Below are positions 745-33,786 of a DNA stretch of 33,786 nucleotides, piece after piece (position 1 is the first letter of the stretch; each line of letters opens with the position of its first letter). Made by a program: the position numbers and the translations under genes. Origin of the DNA: Syntrophobacterales bacterium (GTDB lineage: Bacteria > Desulfobacterota > Syntrophobacteria > Syntrophobacterales > Thermodesulforhabdaceae); NCBI GenBank assembly GCA_026417655.1, contig JAOACS010000005.1:1-33786 (forward strand), in the 5' to 3' direction. Under the pieces are notes generated by a model. That model saw nothing but the letters and a program-made list of their open reading frames with translations, was not told the origin of the DNA and did no database searches.

Positions 745-1086
745 CTACCTCACTTGTTTTTCTACAAGATCTCCAACGATCGGAAGCCTAAATCGCTCAC
801 CTTGAAATGCCTTTATTATACACACTATCCACACTATGGCGGCGAGTATTCCAAGAAGGGTATTTGCAATAAGAAACAGAAGCCCTATTAGTGGAATAGC
901 CGAAAGGTGCCCAAGGATTACAGAAACTATCGTAAAGGCTAGAAAGGTGATTGTTGATTGAGCCGCATGAAACCTAACAAACTCACTTTCCTTCTCAAGG
1001 ACAAGAAAGGCGATTCCTGTAATCCAGCCTAGAACATAGGTCAGCATAGCCTCAATATTTTCATCCAGTCCGAGTTTGGTTCTCAT
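745..1086 (-). CDS. DUF4870 (Tic20-like) small membrane protein
   Basis: This is a 113-residue integral membrane protein of the DUF4870 family, function unknown. It has a short N-terminus (MRTKLGLDENIEAMLTYVLG), a first hydrophobic segment, a charged loop EKESEFVRFHAAQS, and two further membrane spans. The F-V-R-F-H-A-x-Q signature after the first span is characteristic of DUF4870. I chose the ATG at 1086 because AAGGAG (complement of 1095-1100) sits about eight bases upstream. The frame stays open six codons further, but no ribosome-binding site supports that. A candidate sigma-70 promoter lies at 1128-1156 on the same strand. The family is confident; the biochemical role is not known. Confidence 0.75.
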   Translation of the reverse strand: MRTKLGLDENIEAMLTYVLGWITGIAFLVLEKESEFVRFHAAQSTITFLAFTIVSVILGHLSAIPLIGLLFLIANTLLGILAAIVWIVCIIKAFQGERFRLPIVGDLVEKQVR

Positions 1087-1127
1087 GCACCCTTCTCCTT
1101 TCAAAGAGTCCTAGTGAATTTTTCCAG

Positions 1128-1156
1128 AGTATGGCAAAATATTAAAAAGTAGGCAA
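1128..1156 (-). promoter_or_regulatory. Candidate sigma-70 promoter for the DUF4870 gene
   Basis: On the minus strand TTGCCT (1156-1151) and CATACT (1133-1128) are separated by exactly 17 bases; each matches its consensus at 4 of 6 positions. The predicted start of transcription is about 35 bases upstream of the DUF4870 start codon. Prediction by eye only. Confidence 0.4.
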
Positions 1157-1187
1157 TGGTAAACTCATCTTGTAGGAGCACACCTCG

Positions 1188-2615
1188 ATGGAAAGTCTAA
1201 AAGGAAGACTTTTGAGGAAGATCCAGGGTGGTAAGCTATCACGATTATTCCTTGGCGTTCAACGTTTATGGCGGCTCTTCTATCTAACACTCTGGAAGTT
1301 TGGGAGAGATTCATGTTTTGATCGTTCTGCCAGTTTAGCCTTTGCAACCATAATCTCCCTAATTCCCTTTTCCGTTCTCTTTGTAAGTTTTGTTGGACTC
1401 CTTGGAGGTGGTGAGCATATCATGCGTTATGTTCATCAAAAGATACTTCCCGCCATTGCCCCAGAATTTCAAGACGAGATCATAGATTGGCTTCAAAGTT
1501 ATATCTCTCCAACCGCTTTTAAAGCTGGGCCAGCAGGGTTAATCAACCTAGTGGCTGTAATAGGCCTCTTCATGGGAGCATTAAATATCCTTGTCACAGC
1601 CGAAAGGGTTTTTAATCAGATATGGAGAACAAAGACCTCCCGACCTTATTTTCAAAAGGCTACAGCATTTTGGGTTCTTCTCACCTCTAGTCCCTTTTTG
1701 ATTCTTGCATCGATTTCCATAGGAAATCTCATAGCTCCGCCCGGTGGAGCTATCGAGGTCTTCATGGATCATCATTGGTGGGCTCGCATTACCTACAAAA
1801 CGGTCATGCCCGTTATTGTTGAAACCGCCTGTTTTGCCCTAATGTACTTCTACTTGCCTTCAACTAGAGTCCGAGCTCTTTATGCTTCCATTGCTGGATT
1901 ATGGGCTGCTGTCCTATGGGAGCTAACCAAAAGAGCCTTTTACCTTTATGTCTCTCATGCTTTAAACATAATAAACTTTTACAAGCAAATTGCCACAGTG
2001 CCGCTATTTTTTATTTGGATCTTTATAACCTGGCTCATTATCCTATGGGGATGCCAGCTAAGCTACGCTCTGCAGCATAGAGAACTTTTGGAACGATTTA
2101 GAAAAAGGGGCTACCATGATGAAGAGTCCTACTCATCCTTTTTTCTTGGATTGTTTATTCTTTTCAAGCTCTATGAACATTCAATTGGGCTTACAAAATG
2201 CCCGCCCTCGGTTGATGATATGACTAAGGAGTTGGATATACTTTCCACCGACAGGTTTGAAAAGGTTATAGAATCCTTAGTAAGTAATGGTTTTATAGTA
2301 GAAGATGGGCGTAATCCTGGTAGGTATTTCCTCGCAAGACATCCTTCCTTGATTTTCCTAACGGATATTCTTCTTCTACTCTATGAGCAGGAATTTCCAG
2401 CAGAAGCTAAAAAAATTATGCAGAGGGCCTCTGAAAAGGACAGTCTAGCTACCACGAGCTTAGCTGACGTTATAGTCAGAAAAACCTTTGACCAGATTAT
2501 GCAACTTTACTTAGGAAAAACAATAGAGGGAGTATGGAAGGAGATGATGGCAGAAAAGCATCCCCCTCCCCTTCAGAGGCTTAACGATTTAAGAAGCTCA
2601 TCTACAGCATTCTGA
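1188..2615 (+). CDS. YihY/BrkB family inner-membrane protein (formerly called ribonuclease BN)
   Basis: This is a 475-residue protein of the YihY/virulence factor BrkB family. Residues about 45-300 hold the six-helix membrane domain. It includes the family signature near the first span (SLAFATIISLIPFSVLFVS) and the aromatic-rich FYKQIATVPLFFIWIFI segment before the last span. Residues about 310-475 form a soluble C-terminal region with a winged-helix-like stretch around KELDILSTDRFEKVIESLVSNG, as in long family members. The old name ribonuclease BN is a misattribution, and the true role (transport or envelope function) is unsettled. GTAGGAG about ten bases upstream supports the ATG. The last 43 bases overlap the 3' end of the convergent cheZ gene. 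Confidence 0.85.
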   Translation: MESLKGRLLRKIQGGKLSRLFLGVQRLWRLFYLTLWKFGRDSCFDRSASLAFATIISLIPFSVLFVSFVGLLGGGEHIMRYVHQKILPAIAPEFQDEIIDWLQSYISPTAFKAGPAGLINLVAVIGLFMGALNILVTAERVFNQIWRTKTSRPYFQKATAFWVLLTSSPFLILASISIGNLIAPPGGAIEVFMDHHWWARITYKTVMPVIVETACFALMYFYLPSTRVRALYASIAGLWAAVLWELTKRAFYLYVSHALNIINFYKQIATVPLFFIWIFITWLIILWGCQLSYALQHRELLERFRKRGYHDEESYSSFFLGLFILFKLYEHSIGLTKCPPSVDDMTKELDILSTDRFEKVIESLVSNGFIVEDGRNPGRYFLARHPSLIFLTDILLLLYEQEFPAEAKKIMQRASEKDSLATTSLADVIVRKTFDQIMQLYLGKTIEGVWKEMMAEKHPPPLQRLNDLRSSSTAF

Positions 2616-3277
2616 TCTACCGTGTTTCTTCTTTTCTTTAGGCCCTCTACATGCTTTCTGACTTCTTCACGTAATTCTTCATACCCCCTTTCAAACCCTT
2701 CATCTTTAGCTTTCTTGAAAGCCTCGGAGCTAAGATACAATTCAAAGGCTATCTCTTCTACTCTTTTGAGGGACTCGATAAGTTTTTTAATCTTTTGTCC
2801 TGTGATGTCCTGAAAACTAAGAATAGTTAGCATCTCAAGAAGAGTCTGATCGATCTCTTCATGAATTTTCCTCAACTCCTCTAACTTCTCTAGGTCTTCC
2901 AATATGGCCTTTGCTTCCCTTATTTTCTCCTGAACTAATTCTATAAAGTCCATAATTTTAAGGGTTGCACTTTCAGTTATCGAAAGCACATTATCGAGCA
3001 CTGATTGGGACTCTCCTAAAGTCTTAAGAGTTCCTAAGACGGGTTGGTCGAGGGAAATTTCCCGTTTTGCCGAATGTATTTCGCTGTAAATCTTTCCAAT
3101 CCCCTCTACAACATCATCGCTGAGCCCCCTGTAAAACTCACTATCAACTAGAGCTTTCTTAAGGGCTACTACAACCTCCTCCTGAACCGTTTTGCCAATT
3201 ATATCTTTTATGGAAGGCTCCATTTTGCTAACAATATAATTTGCCAATTTTTCAACTAGTTTCTCTTCGGTATCCAT
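2573..3277 (-). CDS. cheZ: CheZ, CheY-P phosphatase
   Basis: This 234-residue, almost entirely helical, cytoplasmic protein would dephosphorylate CheY-P in chemotaxis. The CheZ active-site motif is present as SFQDITGQKIKKL, with Asp157 and Gln161 at the positions of the catalytic Asp143 and Gln147 of E. coli CheZ. The C-terminal tail DELLKSLSL matches the CheY-binding peptide of E. coli CheZ (VDDLLDSLGF-type). A long helical hairpin with coiled-coil character spans about residues 95-180. I chose the ATG at 3277, four bases after the stop of the preceding diguanylate cyclase gene. A start 13 codons earlier is possible and would overlap that gene. It is the third gene of an elbB–cyclase–cheZ operon, and its 3' end overlaps yihY. 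Confidence 0.85.
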   Translation of the reverse strand: MDTEEKLVEKLANYIVSKMEPSIKDIIGKTVQEEVVVALKKALVDSEFYRGLSDDVVEGIGKIYSEIHSAKREISLDQPVLGTLKTLGESQSVLDNVLSITESATLKIMDFIELVQEKIREAKAILEDLEKLEELRKIHEEIDQTLLEMLTILSFQDITGQKIKKLIESLKRVEEIAFELYLSSEAFKKAKDEGFERGYEELREEVRKHVEGLKKRRNTVDQNAVDELLKSLSL

Positions 3278-3281
3278 AGCG

Positions 3282-4058
3282 CTATTCCACTCCAAAGATC
3301 CTATACATGCTACCACCTTGACCCTTAGCTAAATACATCGTCGTATCAGCTTTCTTTAAGAGCTCTGAAATTTCAGAGCCATCATCGGGATACACGGCAA
3401 TACCTATACTTATTCCCACCCTGAGATCATGCCCCCTTATCCTAATAGGAGTAGAAACGGCCTTTATCAACCTTCTAGCGAGAAGGCTTGCGTGGACCTT
3501 CTCGACAAGCCCCGTAGAAATAATTACGAACTCATCTCCTCCCCAGCGAAAACATAGATCCCTTTGTCTAATGGACCCAAGTAACCTTGAAGCAACCTCC
3601 CTGAGCACTTCGTCACCAACGTCGTGTCCGAGGGTATCGTTAATCTCCTTAAAACCGTCTAGATCCATAAAAAGGATAGCCACCTTTTCAGTCGAGCCCA
3701 TCCCTTCAAGAACTCGATTTCCGATGAAATTAAGATATTGTCTAGAAAATAGTCCCGTTAATTCATCCTTTATTATGGATTTTTCATCGGTTATTTCAGC
3801 GAATACCAAAAGAGAGCATAGCTCGACACCGATAGGAAAAATCTGAATCTCTAAGACCCTATGAGTGTCTAGCTTGATGCATAAAGATTTTTCCTCTTGT
3901 CCTACTTTACGGAGAAGAAGGGAAAAGGCACCACCAAGCATATTTCTTGCCCTTTCATTTAGAAACAAACCCCCTTCCCCACAACTCAGTCCCAGTGGAT
4001 AGGGGACGCGCTCAATTATGGTTCTTACAACGGAAATAACTTCGGAGTAATCCTTCAT
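3282..4058 (-). CDS. Diguanylate cyclase with N-terminal PAS-like domain
   Basis: This 258-residue soluble protein would make c-di-GMP from two GTP. Residues 1-95 form a small PAS-like sensor ending in a DEKSIIKDELTGL linker typical of PAS–GGDEF proteins. The GGDEF domain follows: MDLDGFKEINDTLGHDVGDE (metal and guanine binding) and the intact catalytic motif RWGGDEF (GGDEF at 173-177). An RxxD inhibitory site, RQRD at 164-167, precedes it, so product feedback inhibition is expected. There is no EAL domain or membrane segment. The start ATG overlaps the elbB stop (ATGA at 4055-4058), and cheZ begins four bases after its stop. The gene is therefore translationally coupled to both, which suggests a link between c-di-GMP and chemotactic behaviour. 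Confidence 0.9.
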   Translation of the reverse strand: MKDYSEVISVVRTIIERVPYPLGLSCGEGGLFLNERARNMLGGAFSLLLRKVGQEEKSLCIKLDTHRVLEIQIFPIGVELCSLLVFAEITDEKSIIKDELTGLFSRQYLNFIGNRVLEGMGSTEKVAILFMDLDGFKEINDTLGHDVGDEVLREVASRLLGSIRQRDLCFRWGGDEFVIISTGLVEKVHASLLARRLIKAVSTPIRIRGHDLRVGISIGIAVYPDDGSEISELLKKADTTMYLAKGQGGSMYRIFGVE

Positions 4059-4832: not shown

Positions 4833-6260
4833 GTGCATAAACAGGTGGTTACTAGATTCGCTCCAAGTCCTACAGGGCATCTTCACATTGGAGGAGCTCG
4901 GACCGCTATCTTTAATTGGCTCTTTTCTCGGCATAACGAAGGTAAGTTCATCCTTAGGATTGAAGATACTGACACCCAAAGATCAACTACAGAATACACG
5001 GAGTCGATCTTAGAGTCTTTGCGCTGGCTCGGGATTGACTGGGATGAGGGGCCCTATTTTCAGACTAAGCGACTTGATCTCTATCGAGCCTACGCTGAAA
5101 AACTTTACCACTCAGGATGGGCCTATTACTGCGAATGTAGCCCGGAGGAGGTTGAAAGGAGGCGTCAGGAAGCCTTCGCTAGAGGACTAAAACCCAAATA
5201 TGATGGGACATGTCGAGATAAGGGCCTTACTCCTGCTCCAGGGAGAGTTCTTCGTTTTCGGTGTCCTCAGGGAGGAATTACGGTAATAAGGGATATCATA
5301 AAAGGCTCCCTAGTTTTTGATAACTCGGAACTAGACGATCTTGTCCTGATCCGAAGTGATGGAATGCCAACCTATAATTTCTCAGTCATAGTAGACGATA
5401 TAACCATGGGTATTACCCATGTAATAAGGGGTGATGATCATGTAAATAACACTCCCAAACAGGTTTTACTTTATCAAGCCCTTGGCGAATCTGTGCCTGA
5501 GTTTGCCCATGTCCCACTCATACTCGGACCAGACCGTAAGCGTCTCTCGAAACGTCATGGAGCCACATCGGTTATAGCCTATCGTGATATGGGATTCCTT
5601 CCAGAAGCTCTCTTTAATTATCTGGTAAGACTTGGTTGGTCCTATGGGGATCAGGAAATTTTCACCCGAGAGGAGCTTGTCGAGAAGTTCACTCTTGAAC
5701 ATGTTGGCTCTTCGGCAAGCATCTTTGATATGGAGAAATTGAGATGGATTAATGGGTATTACATAAGGAAGAAGTCCCCCCAAGATCTTGTAGACCAGCT
5801 TATTCCCTTCCTAAAGGAAAGGGGATATCCCGAGAGGGAGAGAAGTTACCTTATAAGAGCTATTCAAACCCTTCAGGCCCGTTGTGTGACTCTTTCAGAA
5901 ATGGCCGATGCGATGGATTTCTATATGGTTGACGAGGTAAAGTATGAACCTCAGGCAGCTGAGAAGTTTCTCACCCCTGATACCGCTGGGTTTCTCAAAG
6001 ATATTATTGAAGCCATCTCTTTGAGAGATGGGCAGTTCGACGAAAGGGCTCTTGAGGAATTCTTTAGGCGTCTTGCCGATGAACGGGGAGTTAAACTTAA
6101 GGTGATCGCTCAGGTTGTTAGAGTTGGTCTTACGGGAAGAACAGCTAGTCCAGGGCTTTTTGAGATCATGGATATTCTTGGAAAGGAGACGGTTATTAGA
6201 CGACTCGAAAGAGCTCTCGACTACGCTACGGCCTTTCAAAAGAGTGCCACATCTAGCTAA
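4833..6260 (+). CDS. gltX: Glutamyl-tRNA synthetase
   Basis: This is a class I aminoacyl-tRNA synthetase of 475 residues that attaches glutamate to tRNA-Glu. The HIGH motif is PTGHLHIGGA (residues 13-22), and the KMSKS motif appears as KRLSKRHG (236-243). A zinc-binding set is visible: Cys100 and Cys102 in YYCEC, then Tyr123 and Cys127. The C-terminal anticodon-binding helical domain runs from about residue 320. The start is GTG, supported by GGGAGG at 4819-4825. Whether the enzyme is discriminating or also charges tRNA-Gln cannot be read here. The gene is transcribed alone, toward a shared hairpin terminator at 6276-6308. Confidence 0.97.
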   Translation: MHKQVVTRFAPSPTGHLHIGGARTAIFNWLFSRHNEGKFILRIEDTDTQRSTTEYTESILESLRWLGIDWDEGPYFQTKRLDLYRAYAEKLYHSGWAYYCECSPEEVERRRQEAFARGLKPKYDGTCRDKGLTPAPGRVLRFRCPQGGITVIRDIIKGSLVFDNSELDDLVLIRSDGMPTYNFSVIVDDITMGITHVIRGDDHVNNTPKQVLLYQALGESVPEFAHVPLILGPDRKRLSKRHGATSVIAYRDMGFLPEALFNYLVRLGWSYGDQEIFTREELVEKFTLEHVGSSASIFDMEKLRWINGYYIRKKSPQDLVDQLIPFLKERGYPERERSYLIRAIQTLQARCVTLSEMADAMDFYMVDEVKYEPQAAEKFLTPDTAGFLKDIIEAISLRDGQFDERALEEFFRRLADERGVKLKVIAQVVRVGLTGRTASPGLFEIMDILGKETVIRRLERALDYATAFQKSATSS

Positions 6261-16639: not shown

Positions 16640-16738
16640 GGAAGTGCCTAGCTCGCTGGTGGGGCTCCCGGACTTCAAATCCGGTGGGGGGTAGTGAAGG
16701 CTGCCCCTGGTGGGTTCGATTCCCATGCACTTCCGCCA
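16640..16738 (+). tRNA. selC: tRNA-Sec (anticodon UCA), selC
   Basis: This is a selenocysteine tRNA of 99 bases including an encoded GCCA 3' end. The 8-bp acceptor stem is GGAAGTGC (16640-16647) with GCACTTCC (16727-16734), the extended type of tRNA-Sec. The anticodon stem CCGGA/TCCGG flanks the loop CTTCAAA, giving anticodon TCA at 16675-16677. A long GC-rich variable arm (about 16685-16708) and the T-arm with GGTTCGATT follow. The gene implies SelA, SelB, SelD and selenoproteins elsewhere in the genome; none of them is in this window. It lies between divergent cobT and convergent yjbQ, with its own promoter and no obvious terminator. Confidence 0.96.
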
Positions 16739-26864: not shown

Positions 26865-26893
26865 TTGACTAGCGGAAATGTTTAAGGTTAAAG
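26865..26893 (+). promoter_or_regulatory. Candidate promoter of the aroF–trp operon
   Basis: TTGACT (26865-26870, 5 of 6) and TTAAAG (26888-26893, 3 of 6) are separated by 17 bases. Transcription would start near 26900, immediately before the ribosome-binding site of the leader peptide. The weak -10 makes this tentative, but the position is right. Confidence 0.45.
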
Positions 26894-26913
26894 GTGAATC
26901 TGAGGAGAAGAAG

Positions 26914-26997
26914 ATGGTTATAATCGATGTATCACTCAACGTTAGAGGCTGGTGGTGGTGCTCCATAGGGGCTCACCACGGGTATGCCGTTGGGTGA
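26914..26997 (+). CDS. trpL: trp operon leader peptide with three consecutive Trp codons
   Basis: This short gene has 27 codons plus TGA. It starts with ATG at 26914, preceded by GAGGAG (26902-26907) six bases upstream, a good ribosome-binding site. The peptide begins MVIIDVSLNVRG, continues WWWCSIG and ends HHGYAVG. The three TGG codons at 26950-26958 are consecutive, extremely unlikely by chance just before a trp operon. When charged tRNA-Trp is scarce a ribosome would stall there and mask the first pairing segment of the leader RNA. The stop lies beyond segment 2, not between segments 1 and 2 as in E. coli trpL. Confidence 0.92.
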   Translation: MVIIDVSLNVRGWWWCSIGAHHGYAVG

Positions 26998-27016
26998 TGT
27001 AGTAGGCATATAAGGG

Positions 27017-27054
27017 AAAAGCCGTGGGAGCCCAAAGCTTCCCACGGCTTTTTT
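27017..27054 (+). terminator. trp attenuator terminator 1
   Basis: AAAAGCCGTGGGA (27017-27029) pairs over 13 bases with TCCCACGGCTTTT (27040-27052) around a 10-base loop. The run of T continues to 27054. This is a strong intrinsic terminator between the leader peptide stop and aroF. Confidence 0.92.
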
Positions 27055-27062
27055 GTTTTAAG

Positions 27063-27096
27063 AAGCCGTGGGAATACCCCCCACGGCTTTTTATTT
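27063..27096 (+). terminator. trp attenuator terminator 2 (tandem copy)
   Basis: AAGCCGTGGG (27063-27072) pairs over 10 bases with CCCACGGCTT (27080-27089) around a 7-base loop, followed by TTTATTT. The 5' arm repeats the eleven bases AAGCCGTGGGA of terminator 1 exactly, 44 bases downstream. It ends about 28 bases before the aroF ATG. Confidence 0.88.
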
Positions 27097-27123
27097 GGGA
27101 CCATAAAAATAGGAGAAGAGTCC

Positions 27124-28269
27124 ATGTTAATCGTAATGAAAAAAAATGCGTCTTTAGAGGAGATAGAAAAGGTTATTGAAAGGGCTAAAACAGCGGGATT
27201 TGAAGCTCGTCCAATACCAGGTAAGGAACGGACGGCGATTGGTATTATTGGAAACGACCATCCTATTGACCCCGCTCTTTTTGCCTCCTGTCCTGGCGTC
27301 AAAGAAACTATACCGGTAACAAAGCCTTATAAGCTGGTAAGTCGTGAATTCATGCCCCATGATACTATTATCCAACTTGGATCCTGTGCCATAGGAGGGG
27401 ATCAAAACTTTGTTGTCATCGCAGGGCCCTGTGCTGTGGAAAGTGAGACGCAGGCCCTCTCCATTGCTCACCATGTGAAACAACGTGGTGCCACCCTGTT
27501 TCGTGGTGGCGCCTACAAACCGAGAACATCCCCCTACTCCTTCCAAGGACTTGGGAAAAGGGGACTAAAGATCCTTGCTAAGGTGAGAGAAGAAACGGGT
27601 ATGCTGATAATTTCCGAGGCTCTAGATCACGAACTCTTTGATATCGTAGAGGAATATTGTGACATAGTCCAGATTGGTGCGAGAAATATGCAAAATTTTT
27701 CCCTACTTCGTCGAGCAGGCAAATCTAAAAGACCCGTTCTTTTAAAGCGTGGAATGTCAGCAACAGTTGAGGAGTGGCTAATGGCGGCCGAATACATACT
27801 CCACGAGGGAAATGACAGGGTTATCCTCTGTGAACGGGGAATAAGAACCTTTGGAGATCATAGCCGCAATACCCTCGATCTTTCGGCGGCTCTCTTTGTT
27901 ATGAGAGAAACCCACCTTCCAATTATCATAGATCCAAGCCACGCTTCAGGGCGTCGCGACCAGGTCATACCCCTTAGTCGAGCTGCCTGTAGCCTTGGTG
28001 TCCATGGTATTATGGTTGAAGTCCATAATAATCCTGAAAGGGCTCTAAGCGATGGCCCTCAATCCCTTACGTTTGAAGAATTTGATGAGCTAATGCGCCA
28101 CCTAAATATAATCGTTGGGTCGATGAAGATCCTAAAGAGCACAACCTCCGGCATGAGAAAAGTGGAAGGAAACAATCTAGATTTTGAAAACCTCTTTTTC
28201 AAAACCGGTCTTTTATCTACCAAAGGTGTTACAAAAGGAGAAGGCCATGACACCATCTCCCGATTATAA
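27124..28269 (+). CDS. aroF: 3-deoxy-7-phosphoheptulonate (DAHP) synthase, type Ibeta with N-terminal regulatory domain
   Basis: This 381-residue enzyme condenses PEP and erythrose 4-phosphate, the entry step of the shikimate pathway. Residues 1-75 form a ferredoxin-like domain like that of Thermotoga DAHP synthase, where it mediates inhibition by aromatic amino acids. The catalytic barrel shows VVIAGPCAVESE, FRGGAYKPRTSPYSFQG, IGARNMQNFSLL, PVLLKRGMSATVEEW, RTFGDHSRNTLDLSAA and IIIDPSHASGRRD. A C-terminal extension of about 40 residues follows the usual end (SMKILK), and its last 23 bases overlap trpE. AGGAG at 27111-27115 supports the ATG. As first gene behind the trp attenuator, its synthesis should follow tryptophan supply. 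Confidence 0.95.
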   Translation: MLIVMKKNASLEEIEKVIERAKTAGFEARPIPGKERTAIGIIGNDHPIDPALFASCPGVKETIPVTKPYKLVSREFMPHDTIIQLGSCAIGGDQNFVVIAGPCAVESETQALSIAHHVKQRGATLFRGGAYKPRTSPYSFQGLGKRGLKILAKVREETGMLIISEALDHELFDIVEEYCDIVQIGARNMQNFSLLRRAGKSKRPVLLKRGMSATVEEWLMAAEYILHEGNDRVILCERGIRTFGDHSRNTLDLSAALFVMRETHLPIIIDPSHASGRRDQVIPLSRAACSLGVHGIMVEVHNNPERALSDGPQSLTFEEFDELMRHLNIIVGSMKILKSTTSGMRKVEGNNLDFENLFFKTGLLSTKGVTKGEGHDTISRL

Positions 28270-29815
28270 AACTATTGAACTTCTTATGAACCATTTTAAG
28301 GCTACCGAAGCGGCTAGACCACTTATACCCTTTTTTGTCGAGACCTTGGGCGACGTAGAAACCCCCGTATCTCTTCTTAGGCGAGTGTACAACTACGACG
28401 GAACATTTCTTCTCGAAAGCGTCGAAGGTGGTGAAAGATGGGGGCGTTACAGCTTTCTAGGCCTTGGTTCCCACTATCATATAAAAGTATTTAGAGACAC
28501 TGTAGAGGTTCATTCCCATAATGGATCGGTTTCTACCCATGAACATAATGGGGATCCCCTCTCAGTCATCCGCTCCTTTATGAAAACCTTTTCAACTCCA
28601 CCCCCAGAGCTGTTCGATTTATCACCACTTCCAAGATTTTGGGGAGGACTTGTCGGGTATGTCTGCTACGAGATGGTCTCCTTCTTTGAACCCGTCCCTA
28701 ACCTCCTCCCTGAAAAGGAACCTCTTGCCCATTTTGTCCTTCCATCTAGTATCATTGTCTTCGATAACAAAAGACACACTATCACCCTGATATCTCTGGT
28801 TATTCCTCATCGGGATTATCTAATTTCCGAAATAAGAAAGGAAGGTATTGACCGGTTGGATGAGCTTTACCGCCTCATTATGGATAACACTTCAGAGTAT
28901 CCCCTGATTTATCAAAATCGGGACCCCTCTGTCTTTAAGCTCGAATCTCCCGTAGAACCTGAAGAATTTCGTAAATCTGTTCTTAAAGCGAAAAGGTTTA
29001 TTGCCGAAGGAGAGACTATCCAAATAGTCTTATCCCAGCCGTTCCTATGTAAAGTAGCTCCGAATCCGTGGCTTTTATACCGCCTTCAACGCTTTATTAA
29101 TCCCTCACCCTATCTGTTCTATTGTCGATTAGGTGATACAACCCTTGTAGGATCCTCTCCTGAAACAATGGTTCGTCTCGAAAAGGGCGTAGCATCCCTT
29201 AGACCGATAGCAGGCACAAGACCAAGAGGTGCTACTGAACAGGAGGATAGAAAGCTTTCCGATGAACTCCTTCAGGATGAAAAGGAGCGAGCAGAGCATG
29301 TGATGCTTGTGGATCTTGGACGAAATGATCTTGGTCGTGTTGCGGAAATAGGGACTGTGCAGGTTACCGAATATATGGTTGTAGAACGGTATTCCCATGT
29401 CATGCACCTTGTATCCCATGTTCAGGCGGAACTCAAAAAAGGGCTCGACGCTTGGGATCTCTTTAAAGCGACCTTCCCGGCAGGAACCCTTACGGGAGCT
29501 CCCAAAGTTCGAGCTATGCAGCTTATTGCCGAGCTGGAAGGCCGTCCTCGAGGACCCTATGGCGGGGCCGTTGGATATATCTCATTCCAAGGCAATATGG
29601 ATATGGCCATAACCATTCGTACAGGTGTTATAGAGGATGGCATGCTCACCATTCAGGCTGGAGCTGGCATAGTGGCCGACTCGGATCCCGAAAGGGAACG
29701 TCTAGAAACTATTCATAAAGCCAAGGCGATGGAACGGGCCCTTGCAAAAATCCCCGATCTTATCATCGCCTACGGAACGAAAGGAGGAAAGAATCATGAT
29801 GGTTTTAATAGATAA
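28247..29815 (+). CDS. trpE: Anthranilate synthase component I
   Basis: This 522-residue TrpE makes anthranilate from chorismate, using ammonia from TrpG. The N-terminal part holds the tryptophan-binding element LLESVEGGERWGRYSFLG (from residue 55), so feedback inhibition is expected. The catalytic part shows VGSSPETMVRLEKG, RPIAGTRPRGATEQED, DLGRNDLGRVAEIG, TFPAGTLTGAPKVRAMQLI and PYGGAVGYISFQGNMD. I chose the ATG at 28247, preceded by AAAGGAGAAGG; the open frame runs 21 codons upstream within aroF without support. It overlaps the end of aroF and itself overlaps trpG, indicating translational coupling. Confidence 0.96.
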   Translation: MTPSPDYKTIELLMNHFKATEAARPLIPFFVETLGDVETPVSLLRRVYNYDGTFLLESVEGGERWGRYSFLGLGSHYHIKVFRDTVEVHSHNGSVSTHEHNGDPLSVIRSFMKTFSTPPPELFDLSPLPRFWGGLVGYVCYEMVSFFEPVPNLLPEKEPLAHFVLPSSIIVFDNKRHTITLISLVIPHRDYLISEIRKEGIDRLDELYRLIMDNTSEYPLIYQNRDPSVFKLESPVEPEEFRKSVLKAKRFIAEGETIQIVLSQPFLCKVAPNPWLLYRLQRFINPSPYLFYCRLGDTTLVGSSPETMVRLEKGVASLRPIAGTRPRGATEQEDRKLSDELLQDEKERAEHVMLVDLGRNDLGRVAEIGTVQVTEYMVVERYSHVMHLVSHVQAELKKGLDAWDLFKATFPAGTLTGAPKVRAMQLIAELEGRPRGPYGGAVGYISFQGNMDMAITIRTGVIEDGMLTIQAGAGIVADSDPERERLETIHKAKAMERALAKIPDLIIAYGTKGGKNHDGFNR

Positions 29816-30374
29816 TTACGACTCTTTTACCTACAATTTAGCCCAATATCTTGGAGACATGGGTTGTGAGCTCCTTGTATTTAGAAACGATGAAATATCC
29901 ATTGAGGAACTAGTAAACATGAATCCAAAAGGGATTGTTATCTCTCCAGGCCCAGGTCGTCCCGAATCGGCGGGTATAACCATAGAGGTTATAAGGCGCT
30001 TTGCTGGTGTTGTTCCCATCCTCGGGGTATGTCTAGGACACCAGGCTATAGCAAAGGCCTTTGGGGGCACCATCACCTTCGCAAAACGGTTAATGCACGG
30101 AAAAACCTCTACTGTTACGGCAGATGGTAAAACAATCTTCTCCGGTATAACAAAGCCCTTTCCTGCTATGCGTTATCACTCCCTCGCCGTAGAAAGAGAA
30201 AGCCTTCCAGAGTGCCTTGAAATAAGTGCTGTAGCAGATGACGGCGAGATTATGGGCATACGACATAGAGTCTATCCCATTGAAGGCATTCAATTTCATC
30301 CAGAATCTATAGGAACCCCTGTGGGAAAAAGGATTCTTAGAAACTTTAAGAACCTGGTAGTAAAAAATCTTTAA
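29796..30374 (+). CDS. trpG: Anthranilate synthase component II (glutamine amidotransferase)
   Basis: This 192-residue class I glutamine amidotransferase supplies ammonia to TrpE. The N-terminal DNYDSFTYNLAQYLG is diagnostic of the TrpG/PabA group. The oxyanion loop is ISPGPGRPESAG, the nucleophile is Cys79 in GVCLGHQAI, and the His-Glu pair is in IQFHPESIG near the C-terminus. It is a stand-alone subunit, not fused to TrpD. It starts at the first of two consecutive ATGs at 29796, with AAGGAGG at 29781-29787, and overlaps the trpE end by 20 bases. It could also serve a PabB, as in some bacteria, but no evidence for that is here. Confidence 0.96.
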   Translation: MMVLIDNYDSFTYNLAQYLGDMGCELLVFRNDEISIEELVNMNPKGIVISPGPGRPESAGITIEVIRRFAGVVPILGVCLGHQAIAKAFGGTITFAKRLMHGKTSTVTADGKTIFSGITKPFPAMRYHSLAVERESLPECLEISAVADDGEIMGIRHRVYPIEGIQFHPESIGTPVGKRILRNFKNLVVKNL

Positions 30375-30396: not shown

Positions 30397-31422
30397 ATGA
30401 TGTTTTCCTCTATTCTCAAGCGAATAGTCTTGAAGGAAAACCTTTCTGAGGAAATGATGACCCATTTTATGAACGAGCTCTTCGAAGGAAAGTTTACGGA
30501 GGTTCAGATCGGCGCCTTTATAGCATCCCTTGCTACAAAGGGTGAAACAGCGGAGGAGCTATGTGGGGCCGCCCGTGCTATGAGAGCCCGAGCTAAAAAG
30601 CTTCAGATTGTAGCTTCAACCGTTGTCGATACCTGTGGAACCGGAGGAGATGGTGCCAATACTTTTAACATATCCACCACTACGGCCTTTGTTGTTGCAG
30701 GGTGTGGTGTAACGGTAGCAAAACACGGGAATCGATCTGTATCAAGCTCCTGTGGAAGCGCTGATGTGTTGGAGGCTCTTGGAGTAAAGCTTGACGTGCC
30801 ACCAGAGGTGGTCGAGGAAGCTATTCAGGAAATCGGCATTGGCTTCTTGTTCGCTCCTCTCTACCACAGTGCCATGAAATATGCTGCGAAACCGAGAAAA
30901 GAGCTAGGTATAAGATCTATCTTTAACATGCTTGGACCTCTTACTAACCCCGCAGGTGCCCATTGTCAGCTTATAGGAGTTTATGCTCCGGAACTTACGG
31001 AAATGTTCGCCCAGGCCCTTAAAGGATTAGGAACCCGGAGGGCCTTTATTGTTCACGGTCACGATGGCCTAGATGAAATCTCTGTATGTGCTCCTACAAG
31101 GGTTACAGAATTGTCGGAGGGTATAATAAAAACCTACGACATTTATCCCGAACACTACTTCGGCGAAAGAGCTGATAAGGGTGCCCTCGAAGGCGGATCT
31201 CCCTCAGAAAATGCCGATATTTTAAGGGCTATTTTGGATGGTAGCGAAAGGGGTCCTAGGCGAAACGTTGTAATTTTAAATAGTGCCTTCGCTTTGATGG
31301 CCGCTGGAAAGGCTAAGACCGTTAAAGATGGAATAGAACTGGCAAAACAAAGTATCGACTCCGGTGCAGCCCTTTCTAAGTTAAATGCCCTTATAGAATT
31401 TACCCGCTCTGCCCAATCATGA
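30397..31422 (+). CDS. trpD: Anthranilate phosphoribosyltransferase
   Basis: This 341-residue TrpD transfers the phosphoribosyl group of PRPP to anthranilate. The PRPP and Mg2+ site is clear: VVDTCGTGGDGANTFNIST, then VAKHGNRSVSSSCGSADVLEALG. Other conserved segments are FAPLYHSAMKYAAKPRKELGI and FNMLGPLTNPAGA in the anthranilate-binding hinge region. The length matches the family. GAGGAGG lies seven bases before the ATG, 22 bases after the trpG stop. Confidence 0.97.
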   Translation: MMFSSILKRIVLKENLSEEMMTHFMNELFEGKFTEVQIGAFIASLATKGETAEELCGAARAMRARAKKLQIVASTVVDTCGTGGDGANTFNISTTTAFVVAGCGVTVAKHGNRSVSSSCGSADVLEALGVKLDVPPEVVEEAIQEIGIGFLFAPLYHSAMKYAAKPRKELGIRSIFNMLGPLTNPAGAHCQLIGVYAPELTEMFAQALKGLGTRRAFIVHGHDGLDEISVCAPTRVTELSEGIIKTYDIYPEHYFGERADKGALEGGSPSENADILRAILDGSERGPRRNVVILNSAFALMAAGKAKTVKDGIELAKQSIDSGAALSKLNALIEFTRSAQS

Positions 31423-31438: not shown

Positions 31439-32257
31439 ATGGAAGCTCCAATACCAGATCGTCTCCAAGAAATCCTATCTTGGAAAAGGATAGAAATAGA
31501 AGAGGCTAAGGCTCAAATCCCCCTAGGGGATCTAACAAAAAGAGCCCTTGAGGTAGCAAGATTAAGAAAAGATCGTCCCTTTAGGAAAGCATTAACCAAA
31601 GAGGAGGGTAGTATTAAAATCATCGCTGAGATCAAGCGAGCTTCACCATCGAAGGGGGTAATTAAAGATCACCTCGATGTAACGTTACAGGCGAAAACCT
31701 ATGAATCAGCAGGGGCATCGGCTGTTTCTGTTCTTACCGAGAGAAAGTTCTTTCAGGGGACTCTTGGGGATCTTCTAAATGTAAAAAAATCAATTAATGT
31801 TCCAGTCTTAAGAAAGGACTTCATCTTAGAACCATATCAACTCTATGAATCCGTCATTTTTGGAGCGGATGCGGTCCTTCTTATAGCCCGTATTCTTTCA
31901 AAGGCAGAGCTTGGTGACCTTTTAGCCCTTTCCGATGAGCTAGGTCTCGATGCTCTAATAGAAACCCATGATGAAACCGATATGGAAAAGGCTCTACAAA
32001 GTGGTGCCTCTATCGTGGGAATCAACAACCGAGATCTTTCAAGCTTTAAAGTATCATTGGAGACAACCCTTAGACTCTCCCAATTTCTTGATCCCAAACA
32101 TCATATTGGTGTCTCCGAAAGTGGGATTCAGAGCCGAAAGGATATAGAATGGATTGTTTCTAAGACCGGTATAAGGTCCTTTCTTGTGGGGGAACTTTTA
32201 ATGAAATCCAACGATCCGGCACGGGAGATAAGATCCTTAAAGGGAAATCAGCTATGA
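31439..32257 (+). CDS. trpC: Indole-3-glycerol phosphate synthase
   Basis: This is a 272-residue single-function TrpC with a (beta/alpha)8 barrel that closes the ring of CdRP to indole-3-glycerol phosphate. Key segments are IIAEIKRASPSKGVI (catalytic Glu and Lys), VSVLTERKFFQGTLGDL, PVLRKDFILEPYQLYE, IVGINNRDLSSFKVSL and VSESGIQSR. It is not fused to TrpF, unlike E. coli. GGAGGGG precedes the ATG, and the stop overlaps the trpF start (ATGA at 32254-32257). Confidence 0.96.
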   Translation: MEAPIPDRLQEILSWKRIEIEEAKAQIPLGDLTKRALEVARLRKDRPFRKALTKEEGSIKIIAEIKRASPSKGVIKDHLDVTLQAKTYESAGASAVSVLTERKFFQGTLGDLLNVKKSINVPVLRKDFILEPYQLYESVIFGADAVLLIARILSKAELGDLLALSDELGLDALIETHDETDMEKALQSGASIVGINNRDLSSFKVSLETTLRLSQFLDPKHHIGVSESGIQSRKDIEWIVSKTGIRSFLVGELLMKSNDPAREIRSLKGNQL

Positions 32258-32925
32258 GGTCGGTGCAGGTAAAGATATGCGGAATAACAAAGCCGGAAGA
32301 TGCCTGTTTTTGCAAAGAGCGGGGTATTGATGCAATAGGATGCGTTTTCTTTCCAAAAAGCCCTCGTTTTGTTGACGAGGTTCAGGCTTTGGAAATACGC
32401 TCAGCCTTTGGGTATGGAGTGGTTGGTGTCTTTGTGAATCCCAAACCTAATGATATTATCAGAGTTATAAAAAAGACCGGCATTACAATCGTTCAGCTCC
32501 ATGGTGAGGAACCTGAAGGCCTCGTCAGCGAACTCGAAAGCTCCGGCATTCAGGTCATAAAGGCACTTTTTTACTGGAGAGAACCTAAATTTTTGGAAGC
32601 GCCTAGGTTCAATGCTTCCGCCTTTCTTGCGGAACATGGAGCCATAGGATCTGGTGGAACTGGTGCATCATGGGACTGGAGTGCTGCAAGAAAGCTTAGA
32701 GAATACGGTAAACCATATTTAATCGCTGGAGGAATTAACCCTCAGAATGCGCTACGGGCTATAGAAATGTCCCAAGCCGACGGTATCGATTTAAGCTCCG
32801 GTGTGGAGAAGGCTCCTGGTGTCAAAGATAAGGCCTCTATAGAGGCACTTATGGAAGTTATTCAAAGGGTAAAGGTCCCATGGCCCATTAGGCCAATCTT
32901 TTTCTTAGACGAGACTAATTCATAG
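32254..32925 (+). CDS. trpF: Phosphoribosylanthranilate isomerase
   Basis: This 223-residue TrpF carries out the Amadori rearrangement of PRA to CdRP. It starts with the conserved [12 protein letters not shown], where the Cys is the catalytic base, and contains [22 protein letters not shown], the catalytic acid Asp in [18 protein letters not shown] and [11 protein letters not shown]. The length is near normal, with a short C-terminal tail. The ATG overlaps the trpC stop, so translation is coupled. Confidence 0.95.
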
Positions 32926-32944: not shown

Positions 32945-33767
32945 ATGGTTGAAAAACCTAGGGAGATGCCAGATGAGAAGGGACATTTTGGTATCTATGG
33001 AGGACGATATGTAGCGGAGTCTCTTATGGCGGCTCTTCTCGAACTGGAAGAGGCCTTTATAAGATATCGCCACGATGAAACCTTCATAACTGAGATGCAC
33101 TATTACCTTAAAACCTATGTGGGGCGCCCTACACCTCTCTATTATGCGAAAAGGATTTCGGAATACTTGGGGGGAGCCCAGATTTTCTTAAAGCGCGAGG
33201 ACCTTGCCCATACAGGTGCTCACAAAATCAATAACACCATAGGACAGGCTCTTCTCGCTAAAAGAATGGGAAAGGGGAAAATAATAGCCGAAACGGGAGC
33301 GGGTCAACATGGAGTTGCCACTGCAACTGCTGCTGCGCTCCTCGGCATGGAATGCACGATATTCATGGGAACGGAGGATGTAAGACGTCAAGCTCCAAAT
33401 GTAAAACGGATGGAACTTCTTGGAGCAAGGGTTATCCCTGTAGCGAGTGGAACAGGAACTCTTAAGGATGCTATGAATGAGGCGATGCGATACTGGGTGC
33501 AAACAGTAAAGGACACCTTCTACGTGATAGGTTCAGTGGCCGGTCCCCATCCGTATCCACTAATGGTTCGAGAATTTCAAAAGATTATAGGAGAAGAGGT
33601 CAAGGGTCAGGTCCACGAGGCTATTGGTCGTCTTCCCGATTGCCTTATTGCCTGTGTTGGTGGAGGAAGTAATGCCATAGGGCTTTTCTATGCCTTTCTA
33701 AGCGATCCGGTGGAGATGATTGGCGTTGAAGCCGCAGGAAAGGGTATATCAACGGGTCATCATGCAG
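32945..33767 (+). CDS. trpB: Tryptophan synthase beta subunit (3'-truncated by contig end)
   Basis: The first 274 codons of TrpB are present; the enzyme joins indole and serine to make tryptophan with PLP. It starts [20 protein letters not shown]. The PLP lysine is Lys94 in [13 protein letters not shown], followed by [30 protein letters not shown] and the phosphate-binding loop [12 protein letters not shown]. It belongs to the standard TrpB1 group by these motifs. GGAGGAAAAA precedes the ATG by a short spacing, 19 bases after trpF. The last real codon is at the adapter junction (33768); the remaining C-terminal part and trpA are off the contig. Confidence 0.96.
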
Positions 33768-33786
33768 CTGTCTCTTATACACATCT
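33768..33786. other. Nextera/Tn5 mosaic-end adapter (right contig end)
   Basis: The last 19 bases are CTGTCTCTTATACACATCT, the exact reverse complement of the Tn5 mosaic end. It reads open in the trpB frame and would add false residues SYTH if included in the protein. It is a library artefact. Confidence 0.98.

Follow-up and report, generated by a model that had tools for sequence, protein, structure and literature searches.

A predicted ribosome-mediated tryptophan attenuator with two tandem terminators upstream of aroF-trpEGDCFB in a Syntrophobacterales bacterium

In Escherichia coli, the biosynthetic operon is preceded by trpL, whose leader peptide has Trp codons in tandem and whose 2:3 helix competes with a 3:4 helix, and by an intrinsic terminator. 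In the actinobacterium Corynebacterium glutamicum, a WWW leader is reported for the trp operon and a Phe-Tyr-Phe leader for a gene of DAHP synthase (PMC4046766). A 2013 survey with four Rfam models suggested that amino-acid leader attenuation originated in gamma-proteobacteria and was transferred only a few times (PMC3766115). For the delta-proteobacterium Desulfovibrio vulgaris, the Merino list contains a predicted attenuator before the supraoperon aroA'-aroB'-pheA-aroF-tyrA-[trp]; it is only listed, and the accessible text of the citing paper mentions neither a leader peptide nor tandem terminators nor pairing between terminators (PMC1173090). Tandem terminators with a potential antiterminator make up the rimP-leader of some Gammaproteobacteria, as far as the accessible text of the source goes (PMC2965389), and in Salmonella mgtCBR, according to the available part of another, leader ORFs control attenuation in tandem (PMC3641672).

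Here, the window, i.e. the whole 33,786-nt stretch of DNA that was analysed, contains an operon of the order aroF-trpEGDCFB directly after a predicted leader (Table 1). We propose, with a probability of roughly three in four, that a ribosome-mediated attenuator would permit transcription of this operon at low levels of charged tRNA-Trp, acting through a hairpin chain on two terminators. As in E. coli trpL, tandem Trp codons, 2:3 versus 3:4 pairing and an intrinsic terminator precede the operon; unlike there, the stop codon lies after segment 2, a second terminator is complementary to the first, and the operon begins with aroF. Whereas C. glutamicum has separate trpE and aroF leaders (PMC4046766), here the trp operon itself includes a DAHP synthase gene, and the leaders of three such genes are of the Trp, Tyr and Phe type. 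The rimP-leader differs in that its additional terminator is located upstream and has an inverse motif, and neither an amino-acid leader peptide nor a relay is described in the accessible text (PMC2965389); mgtCBR, as described in the available part of the source, has two ORFs (PMC3641672), in contrast to the single ORF that would here act on two terminators. The leader had been called new, which is right for the lineage; for the D. vulgaris aromatic/trp supraoperon an attenuator was already listed, according to the accessible text (PMC1173090).

The kind of mechanism, ribosome-mediated attenuation, is classical. For the relay between the terminators and the phylum-wide set of aromatic leaders we found no earlier description in the open-licence literature. 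The Rfam model Trp_leader (RF00513) matched neither the window nor L015, L020, L031, L126 or L047, even at E ≤ 1, and the T-box model (RF00230) did not match the window; low-threshold Rfam matches belonged to unrelated families, lay far below gathering scores and were rejected. Leader-peptide attenuation would be native here, widespread in another phylum and missed by the four Rfam models of that survey (PMC3766115).

Table 1. Positions of the genes and of the predicted regulatory elements; positions are those of the window unless a locus is named.
Feature	Position	Strand	Basis and remarks
Upstream gene, GGDEF-type	ends 26857	+	same strand; region up to aroF is intergenic
Possible -35 element TTGACT, weak	26865-26870	+	sequence only; no convincing -10
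Shine-Dalgarno AGGAG of leader peptide	26903-26907	+	sequence; about 7 nt 5' of ATG
trp leader peptide ORF, 27 aa, MVIIDVSLNVRGWWWCSIGAHHGYAVG	26914-26997	+	ATG 26914, TGA 26995-26997
Putative control codons, three consecutive Trp codons, TGGTGGTGG	26950-26958	+	sequence
1:2 hairpin (predicted)	26930-26999	+	fold -39.1 kcal/mol, z -3.9; outer arms 26930-26941:26988-26999, inner arms 26948-26964:26968-26983
Segment 2, predicted antiterminator arm pairing with segment 3	26969-26981	+	constrained folds and relatives
Terminator T1 (predicted), segments 3:4, then U tract	27015-27054	+	-26.2 kcal/mol, z -6.2; segment 3 27022-27033, segment 4 27039-27050
Inter-terminator helix 4:5, proposed relay element	27039-27074	+	27039-27050 with 27063-27074, 12 bp
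Terminator T2 (predicted), segments 5:6	27059-27093	+	-22.9 kcal/mol, z -6.3; segment 5 27063-27074, segment 6 about 27080-27093
aroF, DAHP (3-deoxy-7-phosphoheptulonate) synthase, first gene under the proposed control	27124-28269	+	NF006421, 482 bits, above cut-off
trpE	28253-29815	+	NCBIfam match
trpG	29799-30374	+	NCBIfam match
trpD	30397-31422	+	NCBIfam match
trpC	31439-32257	+	NCBIfam match
trpF	32254-32925	+	NCBIfam match
trpB, start only, cut by window end	32945-33786	+	reading frame recognised in sequence
Second DAHP synthase locus, L133 (G000:C21:7300-13500)	leader about 1375-1461, aroF 1573-2586, tyrA-like 2595-3509		
DAHP synthase-prephenate dehydratase fusion, L132 (G000:C2:177700-182000)	gene 1038-2939		
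LivK-like ABC amino-acid binding-protein loci	L204, L206, L208, L210, L213-L216, L219, L221		

The initial annotation had described a 27-codon ORF with a good ribosome-binding site and three consecutive TGG codons, and both are present at the positions it gave. WWW in a short stop-to-stop frame is a single case in the whole window. The best matches of the window's AroF are Deltaproteobacteria/Desulfobacteraceae contigs, and the genome has 2.3 Mb. A promoter scan of the window called none before the leader, and the TTGACT motif is not among its calls; TTGAC occurs at a comparable place in several other leaders. The window also contains a tRNA-Sec gene (16640-16738, + strand, 75.9 bits), so that the genome probably makes selenoproteins.

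For the analysis of conservation, upstream regions were read in genomes with an orthologous aroF and counted where at least 350 nt were available. Of 34 order-level relatives, 33 have a Trp-cluster leader ahead of the orthologous aroF (own family 4/4, the order's two other families 29/30), versus about 2.6% in dinucleotide shuffles, which makes ribosome-mediated Trp attenuation a well supported prediction from sequence. The sole exception (L128) has an assembly gap upstream of aroF. Trp peptides among the relatives include WRWWW in the sister genome as well as FWWRWWW, FWWCWWWC, FWCWWC and AWRWWW. Desulfatibacillum alkenivorans (L042) is a relative in culture that carries the element. A chance ORF was rejected, as shuffling the intergenic region before aroF 2000 times gave any Trp-cluster ORF only 24 times, and the relatives keep the leader. 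Conserved Trp codons and compensatory stem changes had been set beforehand as tests: the former are seen in these clusters, and the latter were found too, with GGGGCTC/GAGCCC changed to GGGACTC/GAGTCC in the sister genome. In the class-level family f5, no Trp leader stands before aroF (0/12); there it is found instead before trpE (L253, L262). Also, WWW or WWWW leaders occur in many genomes of a phylum-wide sample picked by TrpE homology.

The leader region (26900-27100) folds at -92.3 kcal/mol, compared with -61.0 ± 4.2 in shuffles (z -7.4). Its pairings were followed in relatives picked by protein homology: 45 upstream regions were flagged with a Trp-cluster ORF and 40 of them had tandem terminators, leaving 39 sequences, window included, after L131 was dropped as a duplicate of L047. 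The intrinsic terminator annotated before aroF is present as T1; its stem is paired in 98% of cells across the 39, with both-side changes at 7 pairs. It is followed by a second terminator, T2, that had been overlooked and whose 5' arm complements the 3' arm of T1. The 12-bp helix proposed as an alternative excluding the terminator does compete with T1: GGGCTC(A)CCACGG of segment 2 pairs with CCGTGGGAGCCC of segment 3, with one bulge, and the part of T1 that segment 2 takes up comprises its 5' arm and its loop. This 2:3 helix is stronger than in shuffles in 34 of 39 (z < -1, mean -2.4). The outer arm of the 1:2 hairpin is an extension missed by the initial annotation. Sought in all relatives, the 1:2 helix is strong in family f1 and follows a modest trend elsewhere (mean z -0.8), which makes this protector the least conserved part.

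Stalling at the first Trp codon had been expected to leave segment 2 just free of the ribosome, and segment 2 indeed starts 18-30 nt past that codon, just outside the expected footprint, in all 39 sequences. With a ribosome stalled there on the window and a nascent end at 27034-27046, the constrained fold is 2:3 (-31.2 kcal/mol), and 2:3 is predicted before segment 4 is made in 38/39. Without a ribosome, constrained nascent folding of the window gives T1 at 27053 and then T2 at 27093; T1 forms in 39/39. It had also been argued that the stop codon after segment 2 makes release of the ribosome necessary. The computed fold argues against this: when a ribosome occupies the stop codon (26977-27009 masked), T1 and then T2 still form, as the uncovered half of segment 2 pairs again with segment 1, and the position of the stop codon thus poses no problem for the model. 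The locus combines a Trp-rich ORF before trp genes, terminators between them and, by computed folding, a mutually exclusive antiterminator. The annotated reading as Trp-codon-stall attenuation thereby appears supported by leader conservation, compensatory stems and constrained folding.

In the proposed mechanism, a ribosome supplied with sufficient Trp would read through, and either 1:2 would re-form or the ribosome would cover segment 2. Then T1 (3:4) would stop transcription, and T2 (5:6) would stop polymerases reading past T1. Under Trp starvation, the ribosome would stall at the control codons and segment 2 would capture segment 3; segment 4 (the 3' arm of T1), once freed, would capture segment 5 (the 5' arm of T2). 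With 2:3 and 4:5 formed, neither terminator could form. The OFF state would thus consist of 1:2, 3:4 and 5:6 and the ON state of 2:3 and 4:5, a single stall signal being relayed by the hairpin chain to two terminators. That the relay via 4:5 disarms both terminators is, judged from the sequences, probable. If so, two terminators could be governed by one stall, which would keep leakage low without loss of full induction, and the CCGTGGG stem would hardly change because each arm must fit two partners.

Segments 4 and 5 are complementary in 39/39, with a mean duplex energy of -19.7 kcal/mol versus -8.8 with 392 unrelated control terminators. On the alignment of the 39, 97% of the 4:5 cells are paired and 22 cells at 6 of 11 pairs are changed on both sides, counts that come from related genomes and are not independent events; the T2 stem is paired in 94% of cells. 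When 4:5 is slid by 1-3 columns as a control, pairing drops to 36-60%. Matched changes in 4:5 occur at columns 42:76 (AU in 3), 40:78 (CG/GC in 2) and 46:72 (UA in 9). Since relatedness and T1-T2 duplication possibly inflate these counts, the argument leans on the slid controls, on column 78 and on L048. At column 78, T2 mismatches with its own 3' arm in 12/39 and pairs with segment 4 in 37/39. In L048 (Desulfobacterium sp. MAG, T1-T2 at 5871-5946), the stems differ in sequence from the others; 4:5 is perfect (10/10 bp), and T1 and T2 have one mismatch each. Matches of a T1-T2 covariance model were kept out of this test because the model selects for the shared stem.

With a stalled ribosome and a nascent end at 27080, the global optimum for the window is 2:3 plus 4:5 (-56.1); with nascent ends between 27050 and 27060, and also after segment 6 has been made, the terminator fold has the lower energy. 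Stall-constrained folding gives 2:3 plus 4:5 as the optimum in 20/39, so that the ON state in the remaining relatives would need kinetic trapping. The conserved 4:5 helix with its compensatory changes is weak in one lineage (G314, G060, G211, G234), where the T1 and T2 stems differ, and T2 is absent in some Trp-leader relatives (L044, L046, G073, G263, G071, G107).

The strongest competitor to the relay, which we regard as unlikely, is a classical four-segment attenuator at T1, with T2 as a back-up that arose by duplication of T1 and 4:5 without function. T1 and T2 resemble each other, with a stem common to both in most relatives; duplication or gene conversion may account for this stem, and since the terminators are alike, their 4:5 complementarity may have come along as a by-product. 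The absence of T2 from some relatives and the 19/39 in which the stall-constrained equilibrium fold retains 3:4 fit this reading as well. Against it, a terminator left armed during the stall would block induction, and the likeness of T1 and T2 outlasted family divergence, with stem identity kept by the matched changes at 42:76, 40:78 and 46:72, although unrelated stems would terminate equally well. At column 78, segment 4 is a better partner for the 5' arm of T2 than the 3' arm of T2 itself. This column, L048 and the similarity across families speak against a by-product.

The CCGTGGG core common to T1 and T2 would also allow freed segment 2 to pair with either, as one antiterminator for both and without 4:5. 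The 2:5 pairing was rejected, being weaker than 2:3 and 4:5 in 39/39 (means -13.6 vs -24.3 and -20.6 kcal/mol), which leaves this variant very improbable. The position of the hairpins in an intergenic region downstream of a same-strand gene would suit ordinary transcript ends of the GGDEF gene, with a coincidental Trp ORF. We give this practically no weight and rejected it: the Trp ORF recurs in 33/34 relatives versus 2.6% in shuffles, the antiterminator is conserved in relatives, and GCCGTGGG...CCCACGGCTT is confined in the 2.3-Mb genome to the trp and Tyr leaders.

The relay reading may extend beyond this operon. A covariance model built from T1-T2 alone, with no peptide information, gave at least one match in 224 of 395 phylum genomes and, across the phylum, picks out leaders that belong to aromatic amino-acid genes, which speaks for the proposed mechanism, and an order-level T1-T2 search found four distinct places in the window's own genome (trp, aroF-tyrA, binding protein, leuA). 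We think it fairly probable that relay attenuators with at least six segments in the chain, one stall flipping alternate pairings and disarming two tandem terminators, serve Trp, Tyr and Phe biosynthesis as well as binding-protein (uptake) genes throughout Desulfobacterota, the three DAHP synthase isozymes of one genome each standing under the leader of its own end product. Such branch-specific control by Trp, Tyr and Phe is a testable scheme.

The second DAHP synthase gene of this genome is an aroF paralogue with a tyrA-like gene after it. It has a Tyr leader (LYYYYPYYH; MNCNSWQSFSFLYYYYPYYHRREGAPGMR as read) and a single terminator, in which the GCCGTGGG stem recurs; genomes G001-G004 carry Tyr leaders too. 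The third is fused with prephenate dehydratase (aroF-pheA) and has a Phe leader, GFGFFFFFRK (GFGFFFFFRKPPEGY). The hairpins at this fusion locus (CCACCCGAGGGC, CCCCGGGTGG, CCGGGG, terminator) seem to form a chain in which the number of steps is odd. An ABC binding-protein gene of the same genome (L204, G000:C25:56919-58461) has a leader with FFFCFF, and the LivK-like ABC genes of Table 1 carry Phe (FFFCFF) or Tyr (YYYYYY, GYYYYGY) leaders with tandem terminators, which suggests that these binding proteins may serve aromatic rather than branched-chain amino acids. The leuA leader (L205, G000:C2:138926-140479), a probable Leu attenuator, combines an LLLLLL ORF with a U-tract hairpin; a second hairpin is doubtful.

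Among 59 genes downstream of sampled matches, 16 encode TrpE, 15 DAHP synthase, 11 periplasmic binding proteins, 5 DeoC/LacD aldolases (AroA'-like), 4 TrpB-type proteins and 3 TrpD, frequencies that are biased because the sample comprises the strongest matches minus the known aroF leaders. Most have matching Trp, Tyr or Phe leaders. Also, trpB-type genes with Trp leaders of their own (MWWWQAW and similar, NWWWW) and tandem terminators were observed at L209, L212, L217 and L259.
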